64,000 bases of DNA from a virus, in IMG/VR virus record IMGVR_UViG_3300023235_000015, positions 38,343 through 102,342 of that record. One strand, 5' to 3'. Within the stretch, counting starts at the first letter, position 1; the number at the start of each line of letters is the position of its first letter. The notes under the pieces are model-generated. The model ran no database searches. It saw nothing but the letters and a program-made list of their open reading frames with translations, and was not told the origin of the DNA. A program made the position numbers and the translations under genes. Shown piece after piece: positions 25,019 to 46,177 of the stretch.

Positions 25019-25420
25019 CTAACTATAACTTGATGATATAAGCCAAGTGGGATTTTCCCACTTAACAATTTCTTTTTCTTTAGCCCATCTATTACAAATT
25101 TGTATTTCTTGTGGTGTAGGGCCAAGAATACTATTTGTAAAACTAGAAGTACCTTTTTCTAGTTTTTCTGCTACCTGATAATTACTCCAATAATAACCTT
25201 TTACAGCTAGTCCATAGTAAAACCATCCATCCCCACCCTGAGAAACTAGCTGAAACGGACAATCTTGTTCTAATTCTAAATTATAAGCATAATCGCTAAA
25301 GCTGCCATATTTTTCTTCCATAGCTTCAAATTCTTCATATGGTTTTTCTCCAAACCAACTATCCCACCAGTCATCGCCAGCTATTCCATAAAATAAAATA
25401 CCACTAGCACTACTACCCAT
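25019..25420 (-). CDS. Hypothetical protein
   Basis: 133 aa from ATG 25420 (MGSSASGILFYGIAGDDWWD). Aromatic-rich, with GDGWFYYGLAVKGYYWSNYQ near the middle. Similar 'GILFYG' proteins occur in actinophages; function unknown. Overlaps the RNA ligase end by 8 nt. Confidence 0.7.
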   Translation of the reverse strand: MGSSASGILFYGIAGDDWWDSWFGEKPYEEFEAMEEKYGSFSDYAYNLELEQDCPFQLVSQGGDGWFYYGLAVKGYYWSNYQVAEKLEKGTSSFTNSILGPTPQEIQICNRWAKEKEIVKWENPTWLISSSYS

Positions 25421-32389: not shown

Positions 32390-32533
32390 CTTTTATTCAA
32401 ACCTTTCGAGTCAATGGCATTTATAGGATACGGGAAGTATAGCACACTCACCCGCTACAACGTAATGAGGCCGCAAACCTACTCTCAGAGCCAAAATAGC
32501 TCCAAGAGTAAATCTGCGCCACACTATAATATT
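32390..32533 (-). promoter_or_regulatory. Noncoding leader with candidate extended -10 promoter
   Basis: On the minus strand TGCTATACT (TATACT at 32436-32441) is an extended -10; the best -35 (TTACGT, 18 nt upstream) is poor. Upstream, ACTCT-TG-GAGC/GCTC-TG-AGAGT forms a hairpin over TATTTTG. Probably drives the ArdC operon. Confidence 0.4.
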
Positions 32534-32619: not shown

Positions 32620-32838
32620 TTACGCTGCGATAGTTTCTTTACTTCCTTCTACTACTATTATAATTTCATCATGACTAATCATGAATGGGGAATCTTCAAT
32701 AATGCCTGCAATATGAACATGGTTCCCGTTATGTTTATCTACACTAAGAACTTCTCTAGTGTAAACCTCACCATGCGGCAAATATGAAAACTCTATAAAT
32801 TGCCCTTTTTTAATTGTTTTGACGCTTTCCTTGTTCAT
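32620..32838 (-). CDS. Hypothetical protein
   Basis: 72 aa (MNKESVKTIKKGQFIEFSYL...), beta-rich, possibly a small barrel. Preceded by leader element A. Confidence 0.65.
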   Translation of the reverse strand: MNKESVKTIKKGQFIEFSYLPHGEVYTREVLSVDKHNGNHVHIAGIIEDSPFMISHDEIIIVVEGSKETIAA

Positions 32839-32863
32839 GGTTCCTCTCTATTGTATTTTTTAT

Positions 32864-32915
32864 GCCAGAGGCATAATCAAGTGCAGCTTTTACACTACAC
32901 TTAATATGCGCCTAA
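32864..32915 (-). promoter_or_regulatory. Leader hairpin element A
   Basis: Minus strand: TAGGCG, basal pair GCAT/ATGC, core AAGTGTAG/CTGCACTT, then the A-rich GAGAGGAA ribosome-binding segment. Basal C-G replaces the T-A of other copies. Confidence 0.75.
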
Positions 32916-33235
32916 ACAGTAACTACATCGCGCTCAGCCCAATAACGAACTTTATTTTTCTCATCATCAATCTTTTTATTGTTGTTATCAATAGATTTCT
33001 TAGCTTCATCTAGCATATGAGGGAAATTAACGTCGCCGTAATACCCCCAACATGAATCAATGAAATTTCCACACTTATCTTCTACAACCCAACCATATAC
33101 TTCGCCTTTAGCCCAAGAGCTAACTTCACCCTTAGAATAGTTATCAAACTCTACGCTAGGGTCGCCAGCATCTTGATCATAGTGAAAGTAGATTGTATGG
33201 TTATTGTATTCTTCACCACTTATTGAGTCAATCAT
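32912..33235 (-). CDS. Hypothetical protein
   Basis: 107 aa from ATG 33235 (MIDSISGEEYNNHTIYFHYD), directly after the conserved ribosome-binding segment; longer starts run into the leader hairpin. GWVVEDKCGNFIDSCWGYYG is a segment I recognise from hypothetical phage proteins. The stop TAG is the first codon of element A. Confidence 0.7.
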   Translation of the reverse strand: MIDSISGEEYNNHTIYFHYDQDAGDPSVEFDNYSKGEVSSWAKGEVYGWVVEDKCGNFIDSCWGYYGDVNFPHMLDEAKKSIDNNNKKIDDEKNKVRYWAERDVVTV

Positions 33236-33260
33236 TGTTTTTCTCTCTTTTGTTTTTATA

Positions 33261-33313
33261 TTAGAAGTATAATCAAGTAGTGGATTTCCGCCCACTACTT
33301 AATATACACCTAA
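33261..33313 (-). promoter_or_regulatory. Leader hairpin element B
   Basis: Core AAGTAGTGG/CCACTACTT over GCGGAAAT, basal GTAT/ATAC, constant flanks TAGGTG and TTCTAA. Core identical to elements I and L. Confidence 0.8.
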
Positions 33314-33844
33314 CTAAACAGGCACACTCTCATTATCCTGTCTTAGAACATCAAACTGCTCTAGTTCAACATCAGCCCAAGTATCAAACGCTTGTGCCAC
33401 AAGAGCAATGTTTTCAGGCAGTTCTACACCAACTACGCCATCATAGTCATCTTCTATAATATCCAAGCCAAGATCATCACAGATATTATGGATGACACTC
33501 TTATCATGAATCATCATTCCCCACGTGCCATAATCATCACTTACGGTTGAATCAAAATTCAGAGCGTTAGCAATAATGCAAGCTTGAGCTTCTTGTGGTG
33601 TACTCATTAGAAGCTCATCAATAACTTCACCCTTACCAGCAACACGAACTTCATTAGCAAACTTTAGAAGCTCATTAATAGAAGCCCTGTTACGGATAGC
33701 ATGTAGATTTTGATAACAACCTTGATTACTTCTAAAGTAAATTTCAAGACTATTACTAACCTCAAACTTTTCTTTGTCTACATAAACTTCGCGGCCACTA
33801 ACAGGATCAACAACAATATGGGTAGGAAAATTACTTTTTAGCAT
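33314..33844 (-). CDS. Hypothetical protein, paralog of 37360
   Basis: 176 aa. VVDPVSGREVYVD, IRNRASINELLKFANEVR, ELLMSTPQEAQACIIANALN and a DYG..W.M segment all recur in the protein at 37360, so the two are paralogs. Function unknown. Confidence 0.7.
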   Translation of the reverse strand: MLKSNFPTHIVVDPVSGREVYVDKEKFEVSNSLEIYFRSNQGCYQNLHAIRNRASINELLKFANEVRVAGKGEVIDELLMSTPQEAQACIIANALNFDSTVSDDYGTWGMMIHDKSVIHNICDDLGLDIIEDDYDGVVGVELPENIALVAQAFDTWADVELEQFDVLRQDNESVPV

Positions 33845-33877
33845 TGTTTCTCTTTCTATTTGTTTTATACATTCTAT

Positions 33878-33930
33878 TTAGAAGTATAATCAGACACTAC
33901 ACTTTCATGCAGTGTCTAATATACACCTAA
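33878..33930 (-). promoter_or_regulatory. Leader hairpin element C
   Basis: Core AGACACT/AGTGTCT over GCATGAAAGTGT, basal GTAT/ATAC; flanks conserved. Confidence 0.8.
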
Positions 33931-33931
33931 C

Positions 33932-34099
33932 TTAATACATTACGCTAGCTATATATCCCCGTACTTTTTCTTCCTCTACAAAATCAGCGCCCAAAAAGAA
34001 ATCGTAGTCAGTCCAACCATCTACAAATTCCTGAGCATCTTCCAATGTATCAGCTTCAACTTCAATTGTAGTATCTACACCTACAGTAAAGATAGCCAT
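33932..34099 (-). CDS. Small hypothetical protein
   Basis: 55 aa, MAIFTVGVDTTIEVEADTLE DAQEF...RGYIASVMY (shown in two parts). Strand plus EADTLEDA helix plan as in 24732. Stop lies 1 nt before element C. Confidence 0.65.
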   Translation of the reverse strand: MAIFTVGVDTTIEVEADTLEDAQEFVDGWTDYDFFLGADFVEEEKVRGYIASVMY

Positions 34100-34135
34100 T
34101 GTTTCTTCTCTCTGTTGTATTTATATAAACATCAC

Positions 34136-34186
34136 TTAGAAGCTTAATCATGCTCACTTTTTCAAGTGAACATAATAAACGCCTAA
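34136..34186 (-). promoter_or_regulatory. Leader hairpin element D
   Basis: Core ATGTTCACTT/AAGTGAGCAT closed by GAAA, basal GTTT/AAGC. The upstream gene's TAG stop is part of the TAGGCG flank. Confidence 0.8.
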
Positions 34187-34950
34187 TAAAGGCTTGAATC
34201 GAAGCAGAAGTGGCCGTCACCGTCAGGACAAATAAACTTCTTAGCTTCATCATCCCACTTGGACTTTCCTTCATAACACCAAAAATCAGTCCAATCTTCA
34301 CAATTAATTTCAGTACCAGTGAATGTTTCACGCGGCCAAGCATTTTCATACTCAACATGCATAAGTTCACCAGCACGATAATCAATAGTTACACGTTCAC
34401 CCTTACGATCATCACAAGTAGCAATAGTAAAAGCATCAGCATCCCATCCAAAACCTTCTTCAAGGACACGAAATACTCTAGGCTTAGTATAACCACCACG
34501 AACATCACAACCACCATGAATTTGTAGAAGGATATACTGCTCACCATCTTCAATACCCTCAAAGTGAGTGTACTGAATTACCTGACTAAGCAGGTTTTCA
34601 CTATTATAAGAGTTTACAGTTCCACCAAGCCAACTTTCAGCATGTTCACCAGCAAACTCTTCCATTTCTACACGCCAAGGCGAATTTTCATCACCTTTAG
34701 CATCAACCCACTCATTGAATTTGGTGTCAAGTTCAGCATCAAACTCTAGCCAACTATCACAGTAATGAAAGATAGAAATTGTTGGACCAAATTCACTAGT
34801 CTCAACTTTAGGTGAGTCAATAAAGGATTGAACTGTTTTATCACGGTTCATTTCCCAATTTCTACCATAAGCACCACCACTATCACAAATATTTCTGCCG
34901 GTCGGTTCGATTAACATACCAGCCAATACTTTTTGAGTTTCTGTAGCCAT
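34183..34950 (-). CDS. Conserved phage hypothetical protein
   Basis: 255 aa from ATG 34950 (MATETQKVLAGMLIEPTGRN), after the conserved ribosome-binding segment. YILLQIHGGCDVRGGYTKPR is a motif I recognise from hypothetical actinophage proteins. Function unknown. Stop TAG is shared with element D. Confidence 0.75.
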   Translation of the reverse strand: MATETQKVLAGMLIEPTGRNICDSGGAYGRNWEMNRDKTVQSFIDSPKVETSEFGPTISIFHYCDSWLEFDAELDTKFNEWVDAKGDENSPWRVEMEEFAGEHAESWLGGTVNSYNSENLLSQVIQYTHFEGIEDGEQYILLQIHGGCDVRGGYTKPRVFRVLEEGFGWDADAFTIATCDDRKGERVTIDYRAGELMHVEYENAWPRETFTGTEINCEDWTDFWCYEGKSKWDDEAKKFICPDGDGHFCFDSSLY

Positions 34951-34978
34951 TTGTTTCTCTCTCTTTTTGTTTATACGA

Positions 34979-35048
34979 TTAGAAGTATAGCCATATACTA
35001 CGAAATGTATCATAATTGATCTATTCCGCAGTATATGAAATACGCCTA
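34979..35048 (-). promoter_or_regulatory. Leader hairpin element E (long loop)
   Basis: Core CATATACTGCG/CGTAGTATATG with a 24-nt loop, basal GTAT/ATAC. The most divergent copy apart from J and R. Confidence 0.65.
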
Positions 35049-35234
35049 GTATAATTCAAATACTTCACAATCATTATAGTCTCTTAGACCAAGACCTAGA
35101 TCATCTATAAGGATATCCAATGCCTGATCCATAGCGCGACTATCACTCTCTGCTTCAACAATAACGTTAATCGAGTAGTAATCATATATGTATACTACAT
35201 TGTAAAATTGTACCGTATCATGAAGTTTCATCAT
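35046..35234 (-). CDS. Small hypothetical protein
   Basis: 62 aa (MMKLHDTVQFYNVVYIYDYY...DYNDCEVFELY), containing VIVEAESDSRAMDQALDILI, again a strand plus EAES helix. Overlaps the upstream gene by 17 nt; stop TAG is shared with element E. Confidence 0.65.
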   Translation of the reverse strand: MMKLHDTVQFYNVVYIYDYYSINVIVEAESDSRAMDQALDILIDDLGLGLRDYNDCEVFELY

Positions 35235-35496
35235 TAATATCCAGCTTTCTAATAATAGCCTTAGTTACAGTTTCATTAGTAACCCTGTAAATTCTATCGT
35301 TATCGTAGCCATTTGTATAATCCCAAATGTCAGCTTCATTATAAAGGCCAGCTTCAAGTATCGCTACTACAAACTCTTCAGCAGACTTTATACCTTCAAA
35401 CAAAATGAGTGGACCAAATTGATCACTTCCATCATACCTGCCAGTTACATAAAACCTTACACGGATAGGCCATGACTCTTCTGAATCTAGATTCAT
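35218..35496 (-). CDS. Hypothetical protein
   Basis: 92 aa (MNLDSEESWPIRVRFYVTGR...). Preceded by element F and TAGAGAGATAAA. Not recognised. Confidence 0.65.
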   Translation of the reverse strand: MNLDSEESWPIRVRFYVTGRYDGSDQFGPLILFEGIKSAEEFVVAILEAGLYNEADIWDYTNGYDNDRIYRVTNETVTKAIIRKLDINDETS

Positions 35497-35534
35497 TTTA
35501 TCTCTCTATTTTTTTGTTTATTTATAATTAACAA

Positions 35535-35588
35535 TTAGAAGTATAATCAAGTGTTACTCAATTAAGAGCAACACTTAATATACACCTA
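35535..35588 (-). promoter_or_regulatory. Leader hairpin element F
   Basis: Core AAGTGTTGCTC/GAGTAACACTT, basal GTAT/ATAC. Forty-five further noncoding bases separate it from the upstream gene, unlike most copies. Confidence 0.75.
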
Positions 35589-35633
35589 GTCTCGCATGGT
35601 CAATCCATTATAGCAGGTCTGACGATTGCGCGT

Positions 35634-35954
35634 TTACTCACCAGATAGGTTCACAAGTATTCCAAACATGTTTTCCATATACTGATGAGCTTCCAGTCTA
35701 GAGTTATGTTCTAGAACATCAACAAAGCCCTGAGAGTCTGTAGATAGAGTCCAATTAGCAACTCTAAAAACATGCAGGCCATCTTCTGTAACACTACCTA
35801 TTTCAGAATCATGCATATTATCTAACCAAATAGAACACATAGCTTCTTCAATAGCTATAAGCCGTTCCTGTATATCATTAACCTGTCTTTTAGGCCATTC
35901 AATTGCAGGATTATTTGCTATTTTAATTATTTCTTCCGGCTTTAGATTATTCAT
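35634..35954 (-). CDS. Hypothetical protein
   Basis: 106 aa (MNNLKPEEIIKIANNPAIEW...), helical N-terminus; coupled to the upstream gene by a one-base overlap. Not recognised. Confidence 0.65.
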   Translation of the reverse strand: MNNLKPEEIIKIANNPAIEWPKRQVNDIQERLIAIEEAMCSIWLDNMHDSEIGSVTEDGLHVFRVANWTLSTDSQGFVDVLEHNSRLEAHQYMENMFGILVNLSGE

Positions 35955-36265
35955 TAGTGAATCACATCGTATTCAACTTTTGGCTCTTTAAAAAGATGCC
36001 ATTTATCATCTTCAATAACATGGGCAGATTTTTCAAGATACTCGCCTTGATAATAGTCAATACAAATTGAACCATCAGGATAACTATACCAATTATCTAA
36101 AAGCTCAAGACCTTCGCCTTCAATAAAATCATGAAACTCTTTTTCAGTTTCAAAAATTTCAGGCGTTTGAGTAATAATATGAAATTTTCTTTGCCCATCT
36201 TCAGACAAAATATCATTTTCATCATCATTATACCAATAACTATCAATAATATTTACCTTAATCAT
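35954..36265 (-). CDS. Hypothetical protein
   Basis: 103 aa (MIKVNIIDSYWYNDDENDIL...), acidic; preceded by element G. Not recognised. Confidence 0.65.
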   Translation of the reverse strand: MIKVNIIDSYWYNDDENDILSEDGQRKFHIITQTPEIFETEKEFHDFIEGEGLELLDNWYSYPDGSICIDYYQGEYLEKSAHVIEDDKWHLFKEPKVEYDVIH

Positions 36266-36293
36266 TTCTTCTCTCTTTTCTTTTGTTTATTAA

Positions 36294-36346
36294 TTAGAAG
36301 CTTAGATATCTGCTACCTAAAAGATAGCAGATACACTAAACACCTA
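36294..36346 (-). promoter_or_regulatory. Leader hairpin element G
   Basis: Core TATCTGCTA/TAGCAGATA with six-base basal stem GTTTAG/CTAAGC. TAG of the flank is the upstream stop codon. Confidence 0.78.
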
Positions 36347-36577
36347 GTTAGAGTAAGAGTCAGTAAGTGAAAAGCTAATTGAGCCTCCAACAGTTTCTTG
36401 GTTATATGAACCAGTACTATCAAGTGCGTCAATAACATTGATAGCATTGCAACCATCAGTAACTTCACCAATAAAAGCTCCAACCATAATCAGATCAGAC
36501 TTATCTTCACTAAACAGGTTCATATCATCAATAAGTTCGTCATTGATATTCTTAATTACAACATTCATGCTTGGCAT
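36344..36577 (-). CDS. Hypothetical protein
   Basis: 77 aa from ATG 36577 (MPSMNVVIKNINDELIDDMN); ATG 36568 is possible. Contains GGSISFSLTDSYSN at the C-terminus. Stop shared with element G. Confidence 0.6.
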   Translation of the reverse strand: MPSMNVVIKNINDELIDDMNLFSEDKSDLIMVGAFIGEVTDGCNAINVIDALDSTGSYNQETVGGSISFSLTDSYSN

Positions 36578-36613
36578 TTGTTTTTCTCTCTTTTTGTTTT
36601 GTATTTATATCAG

Positions 36614-36666
36614 TTAGAGGATTAATCAAGCGCCGCTATTTCTAACGACGCTTAATAATTACCTAA
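36614..36666 (-). promoter_or_regulatory. Leader hairpin element H
   Basis: Core AAGCGTCGTTA/TAGCGGCGCTT closed by GAAA, basal ATTATT/GATTAAT. TAG is the upstream stop. Confidence 0.78.
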
Positions 36667-37277
36667 CTAGCTTGAAAACTCTCAAGCCACTCAATCAACG
36701 CATCTCCCATATCTTCACTAGCATGGAAAAAATATTGATCAATATTAGTATAGCCTTGTGGGCCTTCTTCAACTTCAACATTGAGTTCTACAGGGCCATC
36801 TTCATCATCTATGTCACACTCAGACCAAAAATCATAAACATCTTCATTAGTGATGCTTACACCTTCAGGAATAGCTTGTGCGAACATAAGCGGCCAATTT
36901 TGAGAGTATTCATTACTTACTCTACACTCATCACCCTCAAAGATAATCTCAGCAATGTAAATCAAGTTATCGCAAAGATTAAACTCATCAGAAAGCATTT
37001 CTCTAAGAAGCTTAGGCGAAAGTTTAACAGACCAAAACTTGCGACCATCTTCTTCATGAACCTTAAGAGCTTTATCAATCAATCCGCCCTGCTTCTTAAT
37101 GCCTTTAATTGTAGACTCAGTAGCAAGACAACTAATAGCACAAGCTTTCCAACTCTCAACTTCAGTCTTACCATTAGTTGAGTAGTTGATTTTACCATAA
37201 TTACGACGAGCAACATGATCCAATTCCTTATGCTCAGTAGCACGACGAACTAGAACATCTTTATTCTTGATAATCAT
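36663..37277 (-). CDS. Hypothetical protein
   Basis: 204 aa (MIIKNKDVLVRRATEHKELD...EWLESFQAS). Acidic overall; no motif recognised. Preceded by element I; stop shared with element H. Confidence 0.68.
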   Translation of the reverse strand: MIIKNKDVLVRRATEHKELDHVARRNYGKINYSTNGKTEVESWKACAISCLATESTIKGIKKQGGLIDKALKVHEEDGRKFWSVKLSPKLLREMLSDEFNLCDNLIYIAEIIFEGDECRVSNEYSQNWPLMFAQAIPEGVSITNEDVYDFWSECDIDDEDGPVELNVEVEEGPQGYTNIDQYFFHASEDMGDALIEWLESFQAS

Positions 37278-37303
37278 TTGTTTCTCTCTCTTTTGTTTTT
37301 ATA

Positions 37304-37356
37304 TTAGAAGTATAATCAAGTAGTGGATTTCCGCCCACTACTTAATATACGCCTAA
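37304..37356 (-). promoter_or_regulatory. Leader hairpin element I
   Basis: Core identical to element B (AAGTAGTGG/CCACTACTT over GCGGAAAT); basal GTAT/ATAC. Confidence 0.8.
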
Positions 37357-37359
37357 CTT

Positions 37360-37962
37360 TTATACAGCGTTAGCATTGAACTTTTCAAGTTCATAATCAC
37401 AAAATGAATCAAACGCGCTTGCTGCATGACCAATTGGCAGAGGCAGAATGATTGAAGAATTATAATAAACTTCAACTTCAGTCTCATCAAGAAACTCGCC
37501 ATCATCATCATAAAGTTCTTCTGAATCTGTATTATAGTTATGAAAAACTTGAAGATTAAGATCAGAGACTTCAATTGCGTTAGCAACTGCCTCATTCTCA
37601 ATAGTCATTTCCCAAAGATTTTCACCAACTTGATCGCCATAATCGCTACCTTGAATCTGAGATTGAAAATTCAAAGCATTAGCAATAAGGCAAGCACTAG
37701 AATCTGTAGGTGTACTAGGAATAAGTTCATGCAGCATATCATTAGAACCACCAACTCTACGAATATCATTCGCAAAAGCAAGAAGCTCATCAACACTAGC
37801 GCGTTCTCTAATAGCATTAAGATCATCATGTTCTACATACTCTTCAATATGCCATTCAACATCTTCCGCACTCATGTTGTCAAACTTAATTGTGTTTGTA
37901 GTAGTAATAATAATCTTACGGCTACTAACAGGATCAACTACGACATACTTATTTTTATTCAT
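37360..37962 (-). CDS. Hypothetical protein, paralog of 33314
   Basis: 200 aa. VVDPVSSRKIIIT, IRERASVDELLAFANDIR, ELIPSTPTDSSACLIANALN and GHAASAFDSFCDYELEKFN align with the 33314 product. It carries an extra acidic insert EELYDDDGEFLDETEVEV. Function unknown. Confidence 0.7.
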   Translation of the reverse strand: MNKNKYVVVDPVSSRKIIITTTNTIKFDNMSAEDVEWHIEEYVEHDDLNAIRERASVDELLAFANDIRRVGGSNDMLHELIPSTPTDSSACLIANALNFQSQIQGSDYGDQVGENLWEMTIENEAVANAIEVSDLNLQVFHNYNTDSEELYDDDGEFLDETEVEVYYNSSIILPLPIGHAASAFDSFCDYELEKFNANAV

Positions 37963-37992
37963 TGTTTTCTCTCTCTATTTGTTTTTATTTTA

Positions 37993-38045
37993 TTAGAAGA
38001 ATAAACATACACTACTATTTCTAGCAGTGCATGGTAGTCGCCTAA
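37993..38045 (-). promoter_or_regulatory. Leader hairpin element J
   Basis: Core ATGCACTGCTA/TAGTAGTGTAT closed by GAAA; the basal stem is weaker than in the other copies. Confidence 0.7.
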
Positions 38046-38046
38046 T

Positions 38047-38217
38047 TTATTCAATTCCGCAAGCTGAAAAGAACGTATCTCTATTAAAATATTCATTATC
38101 AGATTCCAGAATTATTGCTAAGTTGTAAGCGAAGATAACTTTATCTTCTCTGTCATTGAACAAATGAGACTGTTCTACAAACAATCTAGCAAGCGCCCTA
38201 TAATGTTTTTTACTCAT
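38047..38217 (-). CDS. Small hypothetical protein
   Basis: 56 aa, MSKKHYRALARLFVEQSHLF then NDREDKVIFAYNLAIILESD. Overlaps the upstream gene (ATGA). No leader element of its own. Confidence 0.62.
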   Translation of the reverse strand: MSKKHYRALARLFVEQSHLFNDREDKVIFAYNLAIILESDNEYFNRDTFFSACGIE

Positions 38218-38492
38218 TTTAGATATCCTTCTCCAAAACAGTCTACTACTAGACTATTTTCGTGGTCAAATACTTCTTGAAGTGGCATATCATTGTATGC
38301 CGGACCACTTTTAGCATCTGGCAGAGCAACAATAAGCAGACCTTCATTAGCCATACAGACAGCAGTTTCTACATTCAAACACCTATCATAAGGCTCGTCA
38401 TATTTACCATGCTCAAAAGCAATAGCAACAATTTCGCACCCTTCATAAGGCTCAGTCCATTCAGGCTTAATCTGAATATCACTTATGTTCAT
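38214..38492 (-). CDS. Hypothetical protein
   Basis: 92 aa (MNISDIQIKPEWTEPYEGCE...). Preceded by element K. Not recognised. Confidence 0.65.
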   Translation of the reverse strand: MNISDIQIKPEWTEPYEGCEIVAIAFEHGKYDEPYDRCLNVETAVCMANEGLLIVALPDAKSGPAYNDMPLQEVFDHENSLVVDCFGEGYLK

Positions 38493-38522
38493 TATTCTTC
38501 TCTCTCTATTGTTTTTATATTA

Positions 38523-38575
38523 TCAGAGGATTAATCAAGTGCTGGTTTTTGCGCCAGCACTTAATAATCACCTAA
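38523..38575 (-). promoter_or_regulatory. Leader hairpin element K
   Basis: Core AAGTGCTGG/CCAGCACTT, basal GATT/AATC (covarying with GTAT/ATAC elsewhere). Upstream gene stop is shared. Confidence 0.8.
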
Positions 38576-38673
38576 CTCTTTTTATTTACTATTACTATCA
38601 AACTAGGTATAACTACAGTTACAAATATAACCGCACCTGTAATATCTAAAATGTTGATAATTTTTTCGTCCAT
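38572..38673 (-). CDS. Very small membrane protein
   Basis: 33 aa, MDEKIINILDITGAVIFVTV then VIPSLIVIVNKKS. One membrane helix; its TAG stop opens element K. Confidence 0.5.
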   Translation of the reverse strand: MDEKIINILDITGAVIFVTVVIPSLIVIVNKKS

Positions 38674-38686
38674 AGTATATCAACAC

Positions 38687-38947
38687 TTACATATAAACGA
38701 TATAGTTTTCAATGTAATCCATTGCGGATTCATTAATCCATTCCTCACAAAGTTTATTGAACTCTTTGTAAGTAACTTTTGTAGGCTCGCCTTTAGCATA
38801 GTCATAGAAATTGATACAATCAAATATAATAGCTTTACTAAGACCAATATTGATATAAACTCCACCATCATAGTAAAACTTGAAATTATAACCTTCATAG
38901 ACAATAGACTTTTCACGCCAATCTACTATCTCATCTTCTTTAGACAT
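38687..38947 (-). CDS. Hypothetical protein
   Basis: 86 aa (MSKEDEIVDWREKSIVYEGY...). Preceded by element L. Not recognised. Confidence 0.65.
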   Translation of the reverse strand: MSKEDEIVDWREKSIVYEGYNFKFYYDGGVYINIGLSKAIIFDCINFYDYAKGEPTKVTYKEFNKLCEEWINESAMDYIENYIVYM

Positions 38948-38971
38948 TTTCTTCTCTCTATTGTGTTTTTA

Positions 38972-39023
38972 TTAGAAGCTTAATCAAGTAGTGGATTTCC
39001 GCCCACTACTTAATAAACGCCTA
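38972..39023 (-). promoter_or_regulatory. Leader hairpin element L
   Basis: Core identical to B and I, but basal GTTT/AAGC instead of GTAT/ATAC. TAG is the upstream stop. Confidence 0.8.
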
Positions 39024-39287
39024 TTCGTAATACGGTTGTTCTTTTAGTTCATGGTCGCCAAGAGATTCTTCTGAATAGAAAACAGTATCATCACTACCAG
39101 CCATAGAATATCTATCAGGCTTTGTAATGTTTTCAGCAGAATTAAGCGCCCTAGCAATCTTAGAAGCATATTCTTGATTATCAGCTATTGCCAACAGTCT
39201 AACATGCATAGGATTATCATACCACCATCCACCTTCTTCTGGACCGCCATATTCACGAGACACGGAATATTCACTAATGTATATCAT
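39021..39287 (-). CDS. Conserved phage hypothetical protein
   Basis: 88 aa from ATG 39287 (MIYISEYSVSREYGGPEEGG), chosen because it overlaps the upstream stop (ATGA). The YGGPEEGGWWY motif is familiar from actinophage hypothetical proteins. Stop shared with element L. Confidence 0.7.
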   Translation of the reverse strand: MIYISEYSVSREYGGPEEGGWWYDNPMHVRLLAIADNQEYASKIARALNSAENITKPDRYSMAGSDDTVFYSEESLGDHELKEQPYYE

Positions 39288-39412
39288 GCGATATTTTCTG
39301 ACCACTTTGGAACATTCCACATTACATCACTAATAGCAAACTGTGGAACATTACTAATACTATCGTAATCTTTAGCGTTCATACGAATTACAAAAAGAAT
39401 GTATTCGTTCAT
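39284..39412 (-). CDS. Small hypothetical protein
   Basis: 42 aa, MNEYILFVIRMNAKDYDSIS then NVPQFAISDVMWNVPKW. Preceded by element M and the conserved ribosome-binding segment. Confidence 0.62.
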   Translation of the reverse strand: MNEYILFVIRMNAKDYDSISNVPQFAISDVMWNVPKWSENIA

Positions 39413-39440
39413 TTATTTCTTCTCTCTATTGTTTACATAA

Positions 39441-39491
39441 TCAGAGGCTTATACATACGCTATTTTCATAGCGCATGTTATAAACACCTAA
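39441..39491 (-). promoter_or_regulatory. Leader hairpin element M
   Basis: Core ACATGCGCTA/TAGCGTATGT over TGAAAA, basal GTTTATA/TATAAGC. TAG is the upstream stop. Confidence 0.78.
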
Positions 39492-39655
39492 TCTTCTCTA
39501 ATAGCGCCAGTAATCATTAGCACAATTCCTACAGATACTTGAACAGTACCTATTGCTATATACCATGAAATACTATCAGGTTCAGCACTAGGAATATTAC
39601 TAAGCATGTAAGCGCCCCATAATATATTGAACAGTCCTATTAGTTTATTAGCCAT
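39488..39655 (-). CDS. Small membrane protein
   Basis: 55 aa from ATG 39655 (MANKLIGLFNILWGAYMLSN), two hydrophobic stretches (second: WYIAIGTVQVSVGIVLMITG). Overlaps the upstream gene end; stop shared with element M. Confidence 0.65.
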   Translation of the reverse strand: MANKLIGLFNILWGAYMLSNIPSAEPDSISWYIAIGTVQVSVGIVLMITGAIRED

Positions 39656-40004
39656 ATACAAGCTCATCAAATATACTTACTTGAAGAATAGCGTCAGCAT
39701 CCCAAGCATCAATGTTGCCAGCATTATTTTCTTTACTAGCATTGTTGATATTTTGTGCCATTGTTCCATTAATTTTCATATCGCGGCTGTTGATCTTTCC
39801 AAGACCCACAACTACAGTATCCAAATTAATATGGAATACTTCACCAACAGGGTTATCTTCCCATTCATCCCAAACTACAATTGTAGCTGTGGAAGAATCA
39901 AGATCATAACTTTCTAGTCGTCGCCAAGTATTAGAACCAAAATCTTCAACTATACAAGTGAAAACATCAGTCAAAAACTTATGACGAATATCGAATTCAG
40001 ACAT
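39648..40004 (-). CDS. Hypothetical protein
   Basis: 118 aa (MSEFDIRHKFLTDVFTCIVE...). Preceded by element N. Not recognised. Confidence 0.65.
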   Translation of the reverse strand: MSEFDIRHKFLTDVFTCIVEDFGSNTWRRLESYDLDSSTATIVVWDEWEDNPVGEVFHINLDTVVVGLGKINSRDMKINGTMAQNINNASKENNAGNIDAWDADAILQVSIFDELVYG

Positions 40005-40030
40005 ATTTCCTCTCTCTATTGTTTTTTTAC

Positions 40031-40083
40031 TTAGAAGCTTATAGATACTCTACTTTTCAGCAGAGCATCTTATAAACACCTAA
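40031..40083 (-). promoter_or_regulatory. Leader hairpin element N
   Basis: Core AGATGCTCTGCT/AGTAGAGTATCT closed by GAAA, basal GTTTATA/TATAAGC. Confidence 0.8.
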
Positions 40084-40323
40084 CTAAAACGCTGTGATTG
40101 TGTATCTCATATTATTATTTGTTACAGCTTCACCATCAGCTAACACTTCAACAATGTCTCTGACAATGTTTTCAGACCATTCAGCATAATCAATGGCATG
40201 AGTTTCCAAAGACTTTTTAATCTCTGGCGAATAAAAACTGTTAAGAGTCAAACTTTCGACTTTTTCACTAGTAACGAAAACCCTAGTGTCATGGTCAATT
40301 AAACAGTATTCCATATCGGGCAT
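40084..40323 (-). CDS. Hypothetical protein
   Basis: 79 aa from ATG 40323 (MPDMEYCLIDHDTRVFVTSE), the first start after the conserved ribosome-binding segment. Not recognised. Confidence 0.65.
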   Translation of the reverse strand: MPDMEYCLIDHDTRVFVTSEKVESLTLNSFYSPEIKKSLETHAIDYAEWSENIVRDIVEVLADGEAVTNNNMRYTITAF

Positions 40324-40349
40324 AATTTTCTTCTCTCTATTGTTTTTTA

Positions 40350-40398
40350 TCAGAAGTATAATCAAGTACCCGTAAACGGATACTTAATATACGCCTAA
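40350..40398 (-). promoter_or_regulatory. Leader hairpin element O
   Basis: Core AAGTATCCG/CGGGTACTT over TTTA, basal GTAT/ATAC. The shortest copy. Confidence 0.78.
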
Positions 40399-40402
40399 GA
40401 AC

Positions 40403-40588
40403 TTATGGAGTCCAGCGTTTACTGCTTTCCAAATTGTTAACTTTCTGAAGAAGTCTTTCTATCGTAGAATCTTTGATATTTATGATATCTTCCAGCATTT
40501 CAGTCTGCTTAATCAAACAATCAATTGTGTCGCTTTTTATATCAATTGTTTCACGCTGAATATTTATGATCTGTTCTTGTTCACTCAT
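40403..40588 (-). CDS. Small coiled-coil protein
   Basis: 61 aa from ATG 40588 (MSEQEQIINIQRETIDIKSD). Heptad-like I/L spacing throughout predicts a coiled coil. Function unknown. Confidence 0.62.
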   Translation of the reverse strand: MSEQEQIINIQRETIDIKSDTIDCLIKQTEMLEDIINIKDSTIERLLQKVNNLESSKRWTP

Positions 40589-40614
40589 TTTATCTTCTCT
40601 CTTTTGTTTTTTAT

Positions 40615-40667
40615 TCAGAAGCTTAATCAAGTAGTAGTTTTTGCGCCACTACTTAATAAACACCTAA
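40615..40667 (-). promoter_or_regulatory. Leader hairpin element P
   Basis: Core AAGTAGT/ACTACTT over GGCGCAAAAACT, basal GTTT/AAGC. TAG is the upstream stop. Confidence 0.75.
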
Positions 40668-40816
40668 TCCCAAAGGTTTACAATCCACAACATGTTCATA
40701 ACTCCAACTCCAAAACAAACACCAGACAACCAATCAAATCCATAGAAAAGCAAAATCCAACTACAGATAAGAATGATTAGATTGGCTATCGTTGCAATAC
40801 CGCACTTACTATTCAT
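40664..40816 (-). CDS. Small membrane protein
   Basis: 50 aa from ATG 40816 (MNSKCGIATIANLIILICSW then ILLFYGFDWLSGVCFGVGVM). Two hydrophobic segments. Stop shared with element P. Confidence 0.62.
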   Translation of the reverse strand: MNSKCGIATIANLIILICSWILLFYGFDWLSGVCFGVGVMNMLWIVNLWD

Positions 40817-40839
40817 TATCTTCTCTCTTTTGTTTTTAT

Positions 40840-40892
40840 TCAGAAGTTTATACATACGCTACATAATAGCAGCGCATGTTATAAACACCTAA
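40840..40892 (-). promoter_or_regulatory. Leader hairpin element Q
   Basis: Core ACATGCGCT/AGCGTATGT, basal GTTTATA/TATAAAC (perfect pairs where M and N have a G-T). Confidence 0.78.
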
Positions 40893-40893
40893 A

Positions 40894-41046
40894 TCAGCGT
40901 TCAATCATTCGCCAAATTAGACTTCTTTTTGTATTTTCCTTGTTTTTCAGAGCAGATTCTGCACTTTCAACATCAGAGTAAACTTCAACATCATCCCAAA
41001 TTGCTTGAGGATGATTAGGCTTACTTTGAACAACGAATTCACTCAT
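40894..41046 (-). CDS. Small hypothetical protein
   Basis: 50 aa from ATG 41046 (MSEFVVQSKPNHPQAIWDDV EVYSDVESAESALKNKEN in two parts). Strand plus DVESAESA helix plan again. TGA stop just before element Q. Confidence 0.62.
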   Translation of the reverse strand: MSEFVVQSKPNHPQAIWDDVEVYSDVESAESALKNKENTKRSLIWRMIER

Positions 41047-41072
41047 TTTATCTTCTCTCTTTTTGTTTTTAT

Positions 41073-41158
41073 TCAGAAGTTTAATCAAGTAGTAACACTA
41101 ACGGGAACCGACATTGCCGGTCGCTATTATTTCGCGCCACTACTTAATAAACGCCTAA
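41073..41158 (-). promoter_or_regulatory. Leader hairpin element R (with insertion)
   Basis: Same arms as P (AAGTAGT/ACTACTT, basal GTTT/AAAC) but the loop holds about 30 extra bases with their own small hairpin, ACCG/CGGT. Confidence 0.72.
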
Positions 41159-41475
41159 AAGTCTGCTTTTACAGAAGTAAATCCTACAGTAACTTCTTGA
41201 CCAGCATAACGCCTAGCCTTAAAGGTATCATCAATGATGATAACAGCCTTACCTTTTTCAACTTTTACAAAATCGGCGGTGCAGCCGCTAAGATACTTGG
41301 GGCGAATGTTTTGAATCATTACTTTATCGCCATTTTCAAGCGACGAAATACTGACCCTAGAATAAGCCTTTTTTCTATCATTGATAACATCAATGATTTC
41401 TTCTAGATGGTTGTCATACTGACCATGAAAAACATCTTCCAAAAGTTCAGCAAGTTCACCATTTGTCTTTGTCAT
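41155..41475 (-). CDS. Hypothetical protein
   Basis: 106 aa. ENGDKVMIQNIRPKYLSGCT then ADFVKVEKGKAVIIID resembles a small SH3/KOW-like barrel. Preceded by element S; stop shared with element R. Confidence 0.65.
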   Translation of the reverse strand: MTKTNGELAELLEDVFHGQYDNHLEEIIDVINDRKKAYSRVSISSLENGDKVMIQNIRPKYLSGCTADFVKVEKGKAVIIIDDTFKARRYAGQEVTVGFTSVKADF

Positions 41476-41508
41476 TTTTTCTTCTCTCTTTTGTGATTCA
41501 TTGAACTA

Positions 41509-41559
41509 TTAGAAGCTTAGATATACCCTACATGGTGCAGGGTATACGCTAAACGCCTA
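41509..41559 (-). promoter_or_regulatory. Leader hairpin element S
   Basis: Core TATACCCT/AGGGTATA over GCACCATGT, basal GTTTAG/CTAAGC as in G. TAG is the upstream stop. Confidence 0.78.
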
Positions 41560-41697
41560 GATCATACCTAGATCAATAAGCGGAGAATTATTACCACAAG
41601 GACAAGTACCATCAGGTTCAACAATACAACCACAGTCTAAAGTAGCAATACCATCAGACATAATGGCTTCCAATTCAGCTAATTGTTCATCAGTCAT
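41557..41697 (-). CDS. Small zinc-ribbon-like protein
   Basis: 46 aa, MTDEQLAELEAIMSDGIATL then DCGCIVEPDGTCPCGNNSPL. CxC...CxC spacing suggests a small metal site. Stop shared with element S. Confidence 0.62.
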   Translation of the reverse strand: MTDEQLAELEAIMSDGIATLDCGCIVEPDGTCPCGNNSPLIDLGMI

Positions 41698-41723
41698 TTT
41701 TCTTCTCTCTTTTGTTTACATTA

Positions 41724-41776
41724 TCAGAAGCTTAATCATGCTCACATATTTCTATGTGAACATAATAAGCACCTAA
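41724..41776 (-). promoter_or_regulatory. Leader hairpin element T
   Basis: Core ATGTTCACATA/TATGTGAGCAT closed by GAAA, basal GCTT/AAGC. Upstream-most copy on the minus strand. Confidence 0.8.
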
Positions 41777-41943: not shown

Positions 41944-41954
41944 TGTTTCCTTCT

Positions 41955-42039
41955 CTCTATTGTTTGTTTCTATGGTGAGCCTTTTCATAAGGACTCAAAG
42001 TAATTCACCATTTGCATAGTGAACTAATTTGAATACTTA
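41955..42039 (-). promoter_or_regulatory. Leader with TCACCAT motif
   Basis: Minus strand: GAGTCCTT-ATGA-AAAGGCTC hairpin followed by CTCACCATAGAAACA and the ribosome-binding segment. Related to the leaders at 42318 and 42771. Confidence 0.5.
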
Positions 42040-42201
42040 CTAAATCTTCTCAATGGTGAAGGTATTGTTCAGAGTAGTGTTTTCCGCCTTGAACAAAATA
42101 TCCTTCAACACTTTTGCAGCCAATTCACTTTCACAACCAAACTTCAATTGATCCGTTGAATCTTTTTCACTCACAATTACATGGTAAGCATATCCAAGCA
42201 T
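42040..42201 (-). CDS. Small hypothetical protein
   Basis: 53 aa, MLGYAYHVIVSEKDSTDQLK FGCESELAAKVLKDILF (two parts). Strand then helix. Two bases after the upstream gene. Confidence 0.58.
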   Translation of the reverse strand: MLGYAYHVIVSEKDSTDQLKFGCESELAAKVLKDILFKAENTTLNNTFTIEKI

Positions 42202-42317: not shown

Positions 42318-42550
42318 GTTTTCCTCTCTATGGTGAATCATTTTCAATGGTGAGTATTTGTTACATGGTAAATAATTCGACCGCGTGTTTAGCAATAAGT
42401 AATACTAAATATTATTCAGCGTTAACATTATTGATTAGACCTAAACAATTAGGTATGATAAGTCATTTTAAGTGACTTTCCTACTTTTAAACTGGCAGTT
42501 CTAATTTTACTGTATCCAGTCGTGGTCTAAACTTTTCTCTCGTTTACAAA
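42318..42550 (-). promoter_or_regulatory. Noncoding leader with several hairpins
   Basis: Directly upstream of the gene: ACTCACCATTGAAAATGATT then CACCATAGAGAGG, shared with the leader at 42771. Further up: ACCTAA-TTG-TTTAGGT, AAGTCA/TGACTT and CTGGATACAGT/ACTGCCAG hairpins. No convincing gene. May hold a processed RNA between the tRNA-like element at 42551 and this gene. Confidence 0.45.
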
Positions 42551-42628
42551 ATTGCCCACGTAGGAATCGAACCTACTTTAACCTTTATGGGCGAGACATT
42601 CAGCCGAATATTTTACTTTCGGCAATGT
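42551..42628 (-). other. Degenerate tRNA-like sequence with intact T-arm
   Basis: Minus strand: T-arm GTAGG-TTCGATT-CCTAC (42560-42576), identical to that of the element at 42948. A possible acceptor is ATTGCC (42623-42628) with GGCAAT, or a minihelix CGCCCAT/GTGGGCA (42553-42593). D and anticodon arms do not fold. The 5' part overlaps the end of the gene at 42600. Confidence 0.35.
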
Positions 42629-42770: not shown

Positions 42771-42856
42771 GGTTCCTCTCTATGGTGAATTGTTTTCAAT
42801 GGTGAGTGTTTAAAAGTGAATCAAAAGTCTTGGATTCTTTTGATCCACTTTTAAAC
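42771..42856 (-). promoter_or_regulatory. Leader with 20-bp hairpin and TCACCAT motif
   Basis: Hairpin 42808-42856: 20 paired bases (GTTTAAAAGTGGATCAAAAG with its near-perfect complement, one G-T) closing a 9-nt loop. It is followed by ACTCACCATTGAAAACAATT then CACCATAGAGAGG. Confidence 0.6.
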
Positions 42857-42902: not shown

Positions 42903-42947
42903 TTTTTACTGCATGGTGAGTGTTTTTCGCACCGATAATAATTCTAG

Positions 42948-43019
42948 TAGCAGTAGTAGGAATCGAACCTACTTAGTTAATTTGTGAGAGCAAATTATTA
43001 TTCCTAAACCATTACCGCT
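42948..43019 (-). tRNA. tRNA-like gene, identity unclear
   Basis: 72 nt. Acceptor AGCGGTA/TACTGCT (7 bp, one G-T), T-arm GTAGG-TTCGATT-CCTAC, D-loop-like TTTAGGAAT, and an anticodon stem AATTT/AAATT closing an 8-nt loop GCTCTCAC (6 nt if G-C pairs). No CCA encoded; a D-stem is hard to form. The odd anticodon loop prevents assignment of an amino acid. Lies directly downstream of the zincin gene. Confidence 0.5.
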
Positions 43020-43966: not shown

Positions 43967-44068
43967 TTTTTTCCTGCGCCCTGGGGAGCGGCGCCAGTAA
44001 TTTTTTCCTGCGCCCTGGGGAGCGGCGCCAGTAATTTTTTCCTGCGCCCTGGGGAGCGGCGCCAGTAA
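43967..44068 (-). repeat. Three tandem 34-bp repeats with ACTGG hairpins (copy d)
   Basis: Three perfect 34-bp units at 43967-44000, 44001-44034 and 44035-44068. Each minus-strand unit reads TTACTGGCGCCGCTCCCCAG GGCGCAGG followed by an A run (shown in two parts). They lie in the leader of the gene at 43728. Confidence 0.9.
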
Positions 44069-44088
44069 TTTTTTCCCTTACCTAGTGC

Positions 44089-44127
44089 AAAAAAAAAACC
44101 CCGCAACCTATGAAAGCGTTGCAGGGT
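44089..44127 (-). terminator. Rho-independent terminator
   Basis: Minus strand CCCTGCAAC/GTTGCGGGG stem with an 8-10 nt loop followed by ten T. Ends transcription of the 44140 gene just before the tandem repeats. Confidence 0.9.
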
Positions 44128-44139
44128 AATTTTCTCTTT

Positions 44140-44703
44140 TTATGCAGTCTCTTCAATCGCCTTCTGGCGCTTCGCTGCATCCTTCTCGATTTTGGCAACC
44201 TTTGCCTTTTCCTGCTGGGCAGCCTTTGCCTTTTCCTTACGCTCTGTGACTTGAACGTGAGTGAGACTCGACCTCTCCAACCCGTTGATCTTGATCGGCT
44301 GAGACTTGCGCGGGACTGACTTCCCGTTTTCATCGACTACCTGTTTACCTTCGGCATCCTTCACAGAACGTTTAGTCCGGTCTGTGAATGAGACGCTATC
44401 GGCCGCATTCTCTACAACCTTCCAGACATTGCTGGGGTCGGCCGCAGTCGCTGCCTTTGCAGCTTCATGCGCGGGCTGCATTGTGATAGCAGTCACTCCG
44501 GCATCGGACTTTCCGTCCTTGATCGCCTTCAGGATCTTGCAGTCATCTGCATCGAATGCGATAACAGCGCCCACAGGATGATCCTGCACCCCGGATACTC
44601 CCAGACCTTCAACGATCTGTGACTGCACGAATGCAGCAGCAGCAACATTGATCTCAGTCGAGCGAGCGTTTTCCGAACGTACTTTACTTGTTACTTTTGC
44701 CAT
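44140..44703 (-). CDS. Hypothetical protein, possibly structural or abundant
   Basis: 187 aa, MAKVTSKVRSENARSTEINV with Ala-rich middle (HEAAKAATAADPSNVWKVVE) and a Lys/Glu/Ala-rich coiled-coil C-terminus. Higher GC and more strongly preferred codons than its neighbours, its own terminator and a large leader hairpin suggest high, separate expression. No function recognised. Confidence 0.7.
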   Translation of the reverse strand: MAKVTSKVRSENARSTEINVAAAAFVQSQIVEGLGVSGVQDHPVGAVIAFDADDCKILKAIKDGKSDAGVTAITMQPAHEAAKAATAADPSNVWKVVENAADSVSFTDRTKRSVKDAEGKQVVDENGKSVPRKSQPIKINGLERSSLTHVQVTERKEKAKAAQQEKAKVAKIEKDAAKRQKAIEETA

Positions 44704-44756
44704 TTTAATATTCTTTCTCTTTTACAGTAGTCGGACTGTTAACCGTTTCCCTAACA

Positions 44757-44829
44757 GGGAACTAAGACATAGGTTGTCGCGTCCTGGAGAGCCTCCCCAG
44801 TAAAAATCTGCGCCCATATCTTAGTTCCC
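44757..44829 (-). promoter_or_regulatory. Leader hairpin enclosing ACTGG copy e
   Basis: GGGAACTAAGA/TCTTAGTTCCC (11 bp) encloses GCGCAGATTTTTACTGG-9 nt-CCAGGACGCG (inner element at 44783-44803). It lies 54 nt before the start of the 44140 gene. A competing TTCCCT-AAC-AGGGAA hairpin uses one arm. Confidence 0.65.
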
Positions 44830-45466
44830 AATTAGTGAATAATCACTAATCAGGAAAAGAGAAGAGAAGAAAGTGCAGTCCGGTCTAGACCTATCTTTCA
44901 CTTAGGCTCAATTAGCTAATTCTGTATCGAAAAGTCGCCTGTATCACGATCTTCCTCAAGTTCACTAATCACGTTCTAATGACCATCACCTTAAGAGTCT
45001 GTAGTCCTATTGACTTTCGCACGGATAGGTAAGTCTCACCCATCTAATTGAGCACTGCATTCTTCATCCCTCATCTACCTAATCACTATTCCTAGTGAGT
45101 CTCCACGCCATATGACTTTCGGCGGCCCGGTAAAGGGAAGAAGGTTCCGGCGGATATTTGGCCGAAACAAAGAGGCCGGAACTCCCATCTCTGGGGCGAC
45201 ACCTCTTTTTGAATCAATCTCCACCCTATACCATACGCCACCTGGATGCAACCGCCAGTAAAAAATTGGCTCTGTGTGCAGGATTCTCAGACCGTGCCAT
45301 TGAAGAAACAGAATGTTCACTACTGGCAAGCACCAGCCGGCAAGTCAATTTTTTGGCTTTGCTACTGGTAATCGCCGCCAGGGCTGATGCTATCCCTGCA
45401 CAGGGACGTTCAGCCATCCCCTAGCGGATAACCCTCGCGGCGGGAAAACATGCCTGTGCAGCGCTC
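44830..45466 (-). other. Noncoding, structured, GC-richer region
   Basis: No convincing gene on either strand. Contains ATTAGTGA-TTAT-TCACTAAT (near 44845), TCACTA-GGAA-TAGTGA (near 45090), GTTCCGGC/GCCGGAAC (about 45146-45184), ACTGG copy f (45241-45260) and GGCTGA/TCAGCC enclosing TCCCT-GCAC-AGGGA (about 45382-45415). It may be a long structured leader or RNA gene. Confidence 0.45.
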
Positions 45467-45574
45467 TCAGATGCCTTTACTGGCAATTGAGGTCGGCAGA
45501 AAGTGACCACAAATGCATGGACGATACCCCTTTGTGCGAATTGTCACAAGCGGCCTCGATGTACCTATGCTCAT
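45467..45574 (-). CDS. Small hypothetical protein
   Basis: 35 aa, MSIGTSRPLVTIRTKGYRPC then ICGHFLPTSIASKGI. Strongest RBS in the area (GGGGAGGAATT) and a promoter-like region upstream. CxCGH could bind metal. May act as a leader peptide for the structured RNA behind it. Confidence 0.5.
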   Translation of the reverse strand: MSIGTSRPLVTIRTKGYRPCICGHFLPTSIASKGI

Positions 45575-45595
45575 AATTCCTCCCCATAGTTTAAG

Positions 45596-45690
45596 TTTCA
45601 TAATAGTAGTATAGTACGTTACTATCATTCCTACGACTTTCCCCAAGTGCCACAAAGTTGAAAAAGCGCCACAAGATTTGAATGCCAGAG
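45596..45690 (-). promoter_or_regulatory. Candidate promoter and operator
   Basis: Minus strand: TATACT and TATTAT -10-like boxes, overlapped by the palindrome ATAGTA-ACG-TACTAT (45611-45625), with direct repeats CTTGTGGCGCTT and TTTGTGGCACTT upstream. Suggests regulated transcription of the 45574-44140 unit. Confidence 0.45.
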
Positions 45691-45701
45691 CCAAAAGACA
45701 C

Positions 45702-45742
45702 AAAATGCCCCTAGGGTTTTATAAGGTTATTAGGCGCATTTT
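45702..45742. terminator. Candidate terminator
   Basis: AAAATGCCCC/GGCGCATTTT inverted repeat just after the stop of the 45779 gene, with T-rich flanks on both strands. Likely ends the operon that begins near 49 kb. Confidence 0.5.
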
Positions 45743-45778
45743 CAAATCTACGTAGTACAATTCTGAGAATTACACAAG

Positions 45779-46177
45779 CTAATAGATACAAAACCGGAGT
45801 AACGAGTAAGATTTTATATCTAATTGTTCTGTAGTCATACCTACATCGTAATTTTTTTTAGGTGATGGATCAAAAACGACTTTATCATCAAACATAACAA
45901 TACAATGATTTTTGCCTATTAGATTCAGAGAGGGTACTGAGGCGATCCAATATCCTGCTGTGAAAAACCATACACCCTCTAAGATAGCGTTCTCCGCAAT
46001 CTCAATAATTGTGATTCCAAACTTTTCTAATAAATCAGCGTTCCATTGTCGGAACCACTCATCACCATAATTACCATATGAATGTAGACAGGGTATTTCA
46101 TCTGAATGAACTTCTAAGATAGAAGCTATACATGCCGCGAAACAATTTCTGTCTGTTGTTTGTTTAATTCCTATCAT
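45779..46177 (-). CDS. C39-like cysteine peptidase domain protein
   Basis: 132 aa. KQTTDRNCFAACIASILEV near the N-terminus gives a candidate catalytic Cys, and KNHCIVMFDDKVVFDPSP the His and Asp of a papain/C39-like fold. Role unknown; similar domains occur as accessory proteins in phages. Confidence 0.6.
   Translation of the reverse strand: MIGIKQTTDRNCFAACIASILEVHSDEIPCLHSYGNYGDEWFRQWNADLLEKFGITIIEIAENAILEGVWFFTAGYWIASVPSLNLIGKNHCIVMFDDKVVFDPSPKKNYDVGMTTEQLDIKSYSLLRFCIY

Follow-up and report, generated by a model that had tools for sequence, protein, structure and literature searches.

The hairpin element described here recurs between the small genes of an accessory array in a 64,000-nucleotide stretch of DNA from an uncultured bacteriophage (hereafter the window), which is part of a 102,342-base IMG/VR virus record (IMGVR_UViG_3300023235_000015). 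We found exactly 20 copies, all on the minus strand between window positions 41775 and 32836, and the way in which their arms vary indicates that the transcript is the molecule under selection. From the layout, the length and the place of the elements, we propose, with a probability of about 0.58, that they are mRNA processing signals of the RNase III type that would act like the R sites of phage T7.

A covariance model of the element was trained on 12 copies, with eight copies held out. It recovered 8/8 of the latter (E from 3e-11 to 1e-3) and detected no further copy in the 102-kb record, the next best hit having E = 3.7. The recurrence of 20 minus-strand copies, reported in an initial annotation made from the letters of the window alone, is thus borne out. 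Copies are named below by the window position of their 5′ end, the higher of the two coordinates given in Table 1.

The same annotation had noted that both arms of the hairpin change together, and had taken this as an argument for a structured RNA. In the alignment of the 12 copies, 99.6% of the cells pair, and both sides change in 10 of the 20 pairs, which amounts to 41 double-change cells. None of 500 shuffles matched this count or the covariation score, and sliding the partner by 1–3 columns lowers the pairing to 33–45% of the cells. For all 20 copies, we wrote a G-test with a tree-based (phylogeny-aware) null; predicted base pairs occupy the top 11 ranks among 861 column pairs, and five of them reach E = 0.003, the resolution limit of the test, in which the register of the upper helix is set by the own fold of each copy. 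Note that all covariation statistics rest on copies inside one virus. A compensated change is seen directly between near-identical copies: 39023, 37355 and 33312 have a common core, with a basal stem GTTTA/TAAGC in 39023 vs GTATA/TATAC in 37355 and 33312. We counted 51 G.U pairs vs one A.C in the variable helix portion (G.T being read on the coding strand; binomial p ~2e-14), and the sense strand folds more stably than the antisense strand in 20/20 copies, with mean energies of −22.6 and −12.2 kcal/mol, respectively. Since a signal in duplex DNA would give no such asymmetry, the transcript is the selected molecule. Overall, the compensatory changes hold under shuffling and in the ranking of column pairs, the structured RNA is supported by covariation and by both strand asymmetries, and the outcome that would have spoken against it, a lack of significant covariation, did not occur under the tree-based null.

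The predicted fold is alike in 20/20 copies: four base pairs formed by UAGG and YCUR (Y, pyrimidine; R, purine), a pyrimidine–pyrimidine mismatch, a basal stem, one bulge, an upper stem and a loop. The lowest four pairs end in a G.U at pair 4 in every copy, and the Y.Y mismatch is equally invariant, being part of a 2x2 interruption in 36665. The motifs TAGG and YTCTR of the initial annotation are indeed present, but not as boxes flanking the stem, as they pair together to form its lowest 4 bp below the mismatch. The variable basal stem that follows usually has 5–7 bp, the first pair being nearly always G-C. A bulged U on the 3′ side, five pairs over the mismatch, is found in 13 copies (12 copies of type I and 41157), and an invariant U.G pair flanks it in 12/12 aligned type I copies. 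In five others (40891, 40082, 39490, 41559 and 36346), the bulge is an A, C or U on the 5′ side, one or two pairs higher, and two copies, 38044 and 35048, are irregular, so that the bulged T initially described is valid for the 13 copies but not for these last two groups. Above the bulge, 10–16 pairs lead to a loop of 3–8 nt. The stem comprises 21–24 positions in 18 copies, in which the bulge sits mid-stem, with 10–12 positions beneath it and 10–13 pairs above; 41157 and 35048 carry an extra stem on top while keeping the lower half. Predicted stem stabilities range from about −18 to −32 kcal/mol. GAAA-containing, GNRA-like loops, initially presented as a recurrent feature, turned out not to be conserved: seven copies have a GAAA tetraloop, three have CGGAAA, one has GAAA as an internal bulge, and nine have no GAAA.

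The 20 elements all lie between genes of the same strand. About half of the copies begin with a UAG that also serves as the stop codon of the preceding gene; in nearly all others the stop is at most 8 nt upstream; 35588 has no long open reading frame (ORF) ending nearby, and 41775 only a short ORF ending 10 nt upstream. On the other side, 24–39 nt separate the end of the hairpin from the next ATG. This leader is A-rich and closes with AGAGAG(A)AG (core variants AGAGAG(A/AG)), and in almost every predicted fold its Shine–Dalgarno region is unpaired; other genes of the window more often carry AAAGGA- or AGGAG-like sites. It had been described as nearly constant, which its variable length contradicts, the common core being limited to the A-rich stretch and the AGAGAG motif. 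Pairing of YTCT with AGAG, as a switch between leader and Shine–Dalgarno sequence, was rejected: it is always possible, but does not covary, and the predicted folds leave the Shine–Dalgarno sequence free. Some units of the array contain a second gene without an element of its own; the element thus marks units of one or two genes.

Table 1. Array and hairpin elements in window coordinates; UAG stop, the preceding gene terminates at the UAG of the element.
Feature	Coordinates	Strand	Characteristics	UAG stop	Next ATG
Accessory-gene array	32620–41697	−	20 leader-bearing genes, 42–255 aa; nearly all without known function		
Element 1	41725–41775	−	3′ bulged U, GAAA loop		41697
Element 2	41510–41559	−	5′ bulged C	yes	41475
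Element 3	41074–41157	−	usual lower half, longer upper stem/loop insertion	yes	41046
Element 4	40841–40891	−	5′ bulged A		40816
Element 5	40616–40666	−	3′ bulged U	yes	40588
Element 6	40351–40397	−	3′ bulged U		40323
Element 7	40032–40082	−	5′ bulged A, GAAA loop		40004
Element 8	39442–39490	−	5′ bulged A, GAAA loop	yes	39412
Element 9	38973–39023	−	3′ bulged U; core of elements 12/19, compensated basal stem	yes	38947
Element 10	38524–38574	−	3′ bulged U	yes	38492
Element 11	37994–38044	−	irregular; extra lower-half mismatches, GAAA loop		37962
Element 12	37305–37355	−	3′ bulged U; 1 base off element 19		37277
Element 13	36615–36665	−	3′ bulged U, first G-C replaced, GAAA loop	yes	36577
Element 14	36295–36346	−	5′ bulged U	yes	36265
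Element 15	35536–35588	−	3′ bulged U; no long upstream ORF end nearby		35496
Element 16	34980–35048	−	longer upper stem	yes	34950
Element 17	34137–34185	−	3′ bulged U, GAAA loop	yes	34099
Element 18	33879–33929	−	3′ bulged U, GAAA loop		33844
Element 19	33262–33312	−	3′ bulged U		33235
Element 20	32866–32914	−	3′ bulged U	yes	32838

We folded the early intergenic regions of T7 with the same program, taking gene coordinates from the T7 record and placing the R sites by what we take to be their cut positions. R1 begins 1 nt past the stop of gene 0.7 and folds as 4 bp, 1x1, 5 bp, 2x3, 9 bp and a 4-nt loop, and R0.3 is nearly R1-like (3 bp, 1x1, 5 bp, 1x1, 1 bp, 2x3, 9 bp). R0.5 and the stop of gene 0.4 overlap, R1.3 has a looser fold, and only the upper half of R1.1 was obtained in the short stretch folded. 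The lower half of the window elements equals that of R1 (4 bp, 1x1, 5 bp) and is followed by 0x1 and 11–13 bp. The elements resemble the R sites in lying at or just after the upstream stop and in being composed of two half-stems with an asymmetric interruption in the middle. As in T7 and T3, tens of nucleotides separate them from the next start, and they are repeated between genes of one transcript (PMC4858673); in T7, RNase III cuts the early transcript into mono- and dicistronic mRNAs, and R1.1 RNA at a single bond (PMC4858673). The differences are equally clear. T7 has five sites in its early transcript, with internal loops from 2x3 to 4x5 (PMC6121014), R1.1 having a 4/5 internal loop (PMC6121014), whereas 20 sites are present here in 9 kb; unlike the T7 sites, they have a conserved UAGG/YCUR base; and the virus has a DnaE-type polymerase and a capsid protein nearest to those of Gordonia and Mycobacterium phages. 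No sequence homology to the T7 R sites was detected, the resemblance being one of layout.

Starting from the observed fold, strand, covariation, geometry and placement between stop and start, we infer the occurrence and exact site of the cut, the enzyme responsible and the effects on stability and translation as follows. The accessory genes would be carried on one long minus-strand transcript, which a nuclease specific for double strands, most probably the host RNase III, would cleave at each hairpin. The stem of ~22 positions, i.e. two turns of an RNA helix, would seat the enzyme over the central bulge, and the bulge would bias it towards a single nick, placed in the 3′ arm. In the upstream message, the upper half-hairpin would then remain behind the stop codon and shield the 3′ end from exonucleases, the downstream message would begin with a short unpaired A-rich leader and the AGAGAG ribosome site, and each one- or two-gene message would be translated on its own.

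In favour of RNase III-type processing, the defects of the stem are kept, not repaired: the Y.Y mismatch and the G.U at pair 4 persist in 20/20 copies, and the U.G pair with the bulged U in 12/12 type I copies. Several observations weigh against it. A Pfam search of the record returned no RNase III and no protein with a double-stranded RNA-binding domain encoded by the phage, so that the enzyme would have to come from the host. In its centre, the stem is interrupted by a bulge of 1 nt, vs internal loops of 2x3 to 4x5 in T7, which makes a double cut equally possible. The strict conservation of UAGG, of the U.G pair and of YUCUR exceeds the known needs of RNase III alone, and the covariance model of the element finds nothing in T7, although the genomes searched held no positive control. 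Of the initial suggestion that the elements process or co-regulate the accessory genes, the processing part is the one that we also favour. It is doubtful, but conceivable, that they form a new class of repeated phage RNA element, in which all accessory genes of one transcription unit would be tagged by one conserved hairpin and a dedicated factor, a phage protein or a modified host nuclease, would read it, these genes being released, stabilised or silenced together at the post-transcriptional level.

Recognition by a regulator is an unlikely alternative: a phage or host RNA-binding protein would switch the translation or stability of all 20 leaders, as in a post-transcriptional regulon of the MS2 coat or T4 RegA kind but operon-wide. 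The strictly kept UAGG/YCUR, Y.Y mismatch, U.G pair and bulge do resemble recognition determinants, and the element set is confined to one functional block of accessory genes. However, a sequence-specific site seldom has, as is the case here, a bulge of variable strand and base and an unconserved loop; the Shine–Dalgarno sequence is free and 24–39 nt off, so binding alone would not cover it, and no candidate protein was found. Alternatively, though we hold this to be quite unlikely, the hairpin may stay uncut, acting after each stop as a barrier to 3′ decay and isolating the next leader for independent translation. Its location immediately after stop codons, its stable stem and the free leader would suit such an insulator, but a plain barrier requires neither a fixed length of 21–24 positions nor a mismatch, a central bulge or a conserved G.U, and REP-like barriers vary freely.

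Elements 12 and 19 are identical but for one base in the hairpin, yet they follow paralogues only 34% identical and precede unrelated genes, and an element with its one or two genes behaves as a cassette; the elements might thus be recombination seams, short common blocks for the movement of cassettes, with the fold as a by-product or as a single-stranded DNA site like integron attC. We regard this as very unlikely, since the fold is specific to the transcript strand and to gene orientation in 20/20 copies, no tyrosine recombinase was found in the record (no PF00589 match by Pfam), and the attC layout RYYYAAC…GTTRRRY with an unpaired spacer is not seen, the outer pairs TAGG/YCTR being reversed with one position unpaired. 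Cassette exchange may nevertheless be a side effect of the elements. A DNA signal built on an inverted repeat (promoter, operator or terminator), like the ESAS of cluster K mycobacteriophages with which the initial annotation compared the elements, would account for the shape and the location before genes, but is highly improbable given that the arms vary freely while pairing persists, with the G.U over A.C excess described above. Promoter-like sites are fewer than in shuffles (35 vs 44.1); terminator-like sites are as expected (4 vs 4.0), only one touches an element, and the U tract that follows the GC-rich stem of an intrinsic terminator is missing. Finally, template switching at quasi-palindromes copies arm onto arm and could mimic covariation without selection. 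It can generate perfect inverted repeats, and recent duplicates are present among the copies; such correction would, however, erase mismatches and G.U pairs, whereas no copy lacks the Y.Y mismatch or the G.U at pair 4 and no type I copy the bulge or the U.G pair, which renders a mutational artefact barely credible.

As regards other known systems, SAS and ESAS are likewise repeated inverted repeats that directly precede the starts of non-structural genes and in some cases overlap the stop codon of the gene before (PMC3203893). The likeness is one of position and does not extend to pairing or promoter content: the arm changes of ESAS do not support RNA pairing according to their authors (PMC3203893), and in a later reading ESAS is a SigA promoter with an inverted repeat and −35/−10 hexamers inside (PMC11373665). 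Unlike ESAS, with conserved 17-bp inverted repeats, SigA hexamers and no compensatory change, the elements have covarying arms and no promoter excess. Moreover, the cluster K SAS sequence 5′-GGGATAGGAGCCC is not present at the start codons, where the leaders have AGAGAG(A)AG in an A-rich stretch. The Mimivirus “hairpin rule” is comparable in that intergenic hairpins, conserved in shape but not in sequence, are cut by an RNase III-like enzyme (PMC4402537). Viruses of that type, however, infect eukaryotes, encode the nuclease and add poly(A), whereas this record is without an RNase III gene by Pfam. No Rfam family matched the window at gathering score, with only sub-threshold chance hits in the array.

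Within the array, the genes at 37962–37360 and 33844–33314 are paralogues with 34% protein identity, and the elements that follow them (37355 and 33312) differ by one base within the hairpin; elements have thus been copied or homogenised more often than genes, a pattern consistent with strong constraint, with gene conversion or with an exchange of cassettes by way of the elements. A single other contig carries elements, a sister contig 99.99% identical over 15.8 kb. Strict degenerate patterns of the element matched this sister contig only in the viral contig collection, and a looser pattern gave 86 stretches, close to a hand-estimated chance number, none of whose best-scoring candidates besides the sister contig folds like the element; a pattern of the element had no match in the genome contig collection. 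Protein searches with the capsid protein, DnaE, the paralogue pair and phrog_11344 led to no other viral contig, and comparison of the array with phage records gave no match by megablast and almost none by blastn. A search of phage genomes with the covariance model, the check proposed initially, likewise gave no match in Gordonia phage Abscondus or Mycobacterium phage Stephig9, as in T7. In the sampled genome ends of Abscondus and Stephig9, a strict stem scan found at most one long stem, inside a gene. Abscondus, a distant relative, has repeated TTGACT-N17-TAGACT-like boxes ahead of small genes at 960–2360, promoter-like sequences that occupy there the place of the hairpins.

The array sits inside a long minus-strand gene block, and most of its genes are without known family. 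One of them, phrog_11344, has matches almost exclusively in Gordonia and Mycobacterium phages, and the major head (capsid) protein has its nearest matches in the same phages, at ~28% identity; on the evidence of these two proteins, an actinobacterial host is likely. The matches of an ArdC-like protein, considered with regard to the host, are mixed and distant. The record also encodes DNA polymerase III alpha-type (DnaE-type) genes, a UvsX/RecA-like recombinase and an endolysin, and the window contains genes for an RNA ligase (25413–26177) and a CCA-adding enzyme (50194–51618).

At the borders of the array, we observed other repeats and folds. Downstream of its last gene, a hairpin of 22 bp without defects (G.U allowed) lies at 32472–32518 on the minus strand; it is outside the element family and is perhaps the end signal of the array. 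Directly upstream of the array, a second repeated leader is present at 42321–42359 and 42773–42811 (minus strand), in 39-nt copies 92% identical that carry two CACCAT boxes (AAATACTCACCATTGAAAATGATTCACCATAGAGAGGAA) and, as in the array leaders, an AGAGAG-type ribosome site at the end; pieces of it reappear at 41954–42059. Two identical copies of a tRNA T-arm-like 19-nt sequence, GTAGGAATCGAACCTACTT, are found at 42560–42578 and 42956–42974; ARAGORN makes a single, unusual tRNA call (42947–43019). The G+C content climbs to 0.47 at 44001–46000, vs ~0.37 for the genome. Further away, on the plus strand, the DNA polymerase III alpha gene is split into ORFs 313–1677 and 2184–4361, which match adjacent parts of PHROG 405 and have a further ORF between them, possibly an intein, an intron or a split gene, and ORF 6240–8108 has a Cas4/exonuclease-like match with an internal LAGLIDADG_3 domain, a candidate intein.

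The cutting of RNA gene by gene at T7-like hairpins, known from few coliphages, is textbook matter. If the 20 elements are RNase III-type processing signals, this strategy would have arisen or spread well outside the T7 group, in an unrelated and probably actinobacterial phage. The 20 copies would then be a natural mutational series for one nuclease, in which the free and the fixed positions, i.e. the UAGG base, the Y.Y mismatch, the U.G pair and the central bulge, show what the reader of the hairpin needs, and they would offer a concrete alternative to promoters for the expression of long rows of tiny accessory genes.

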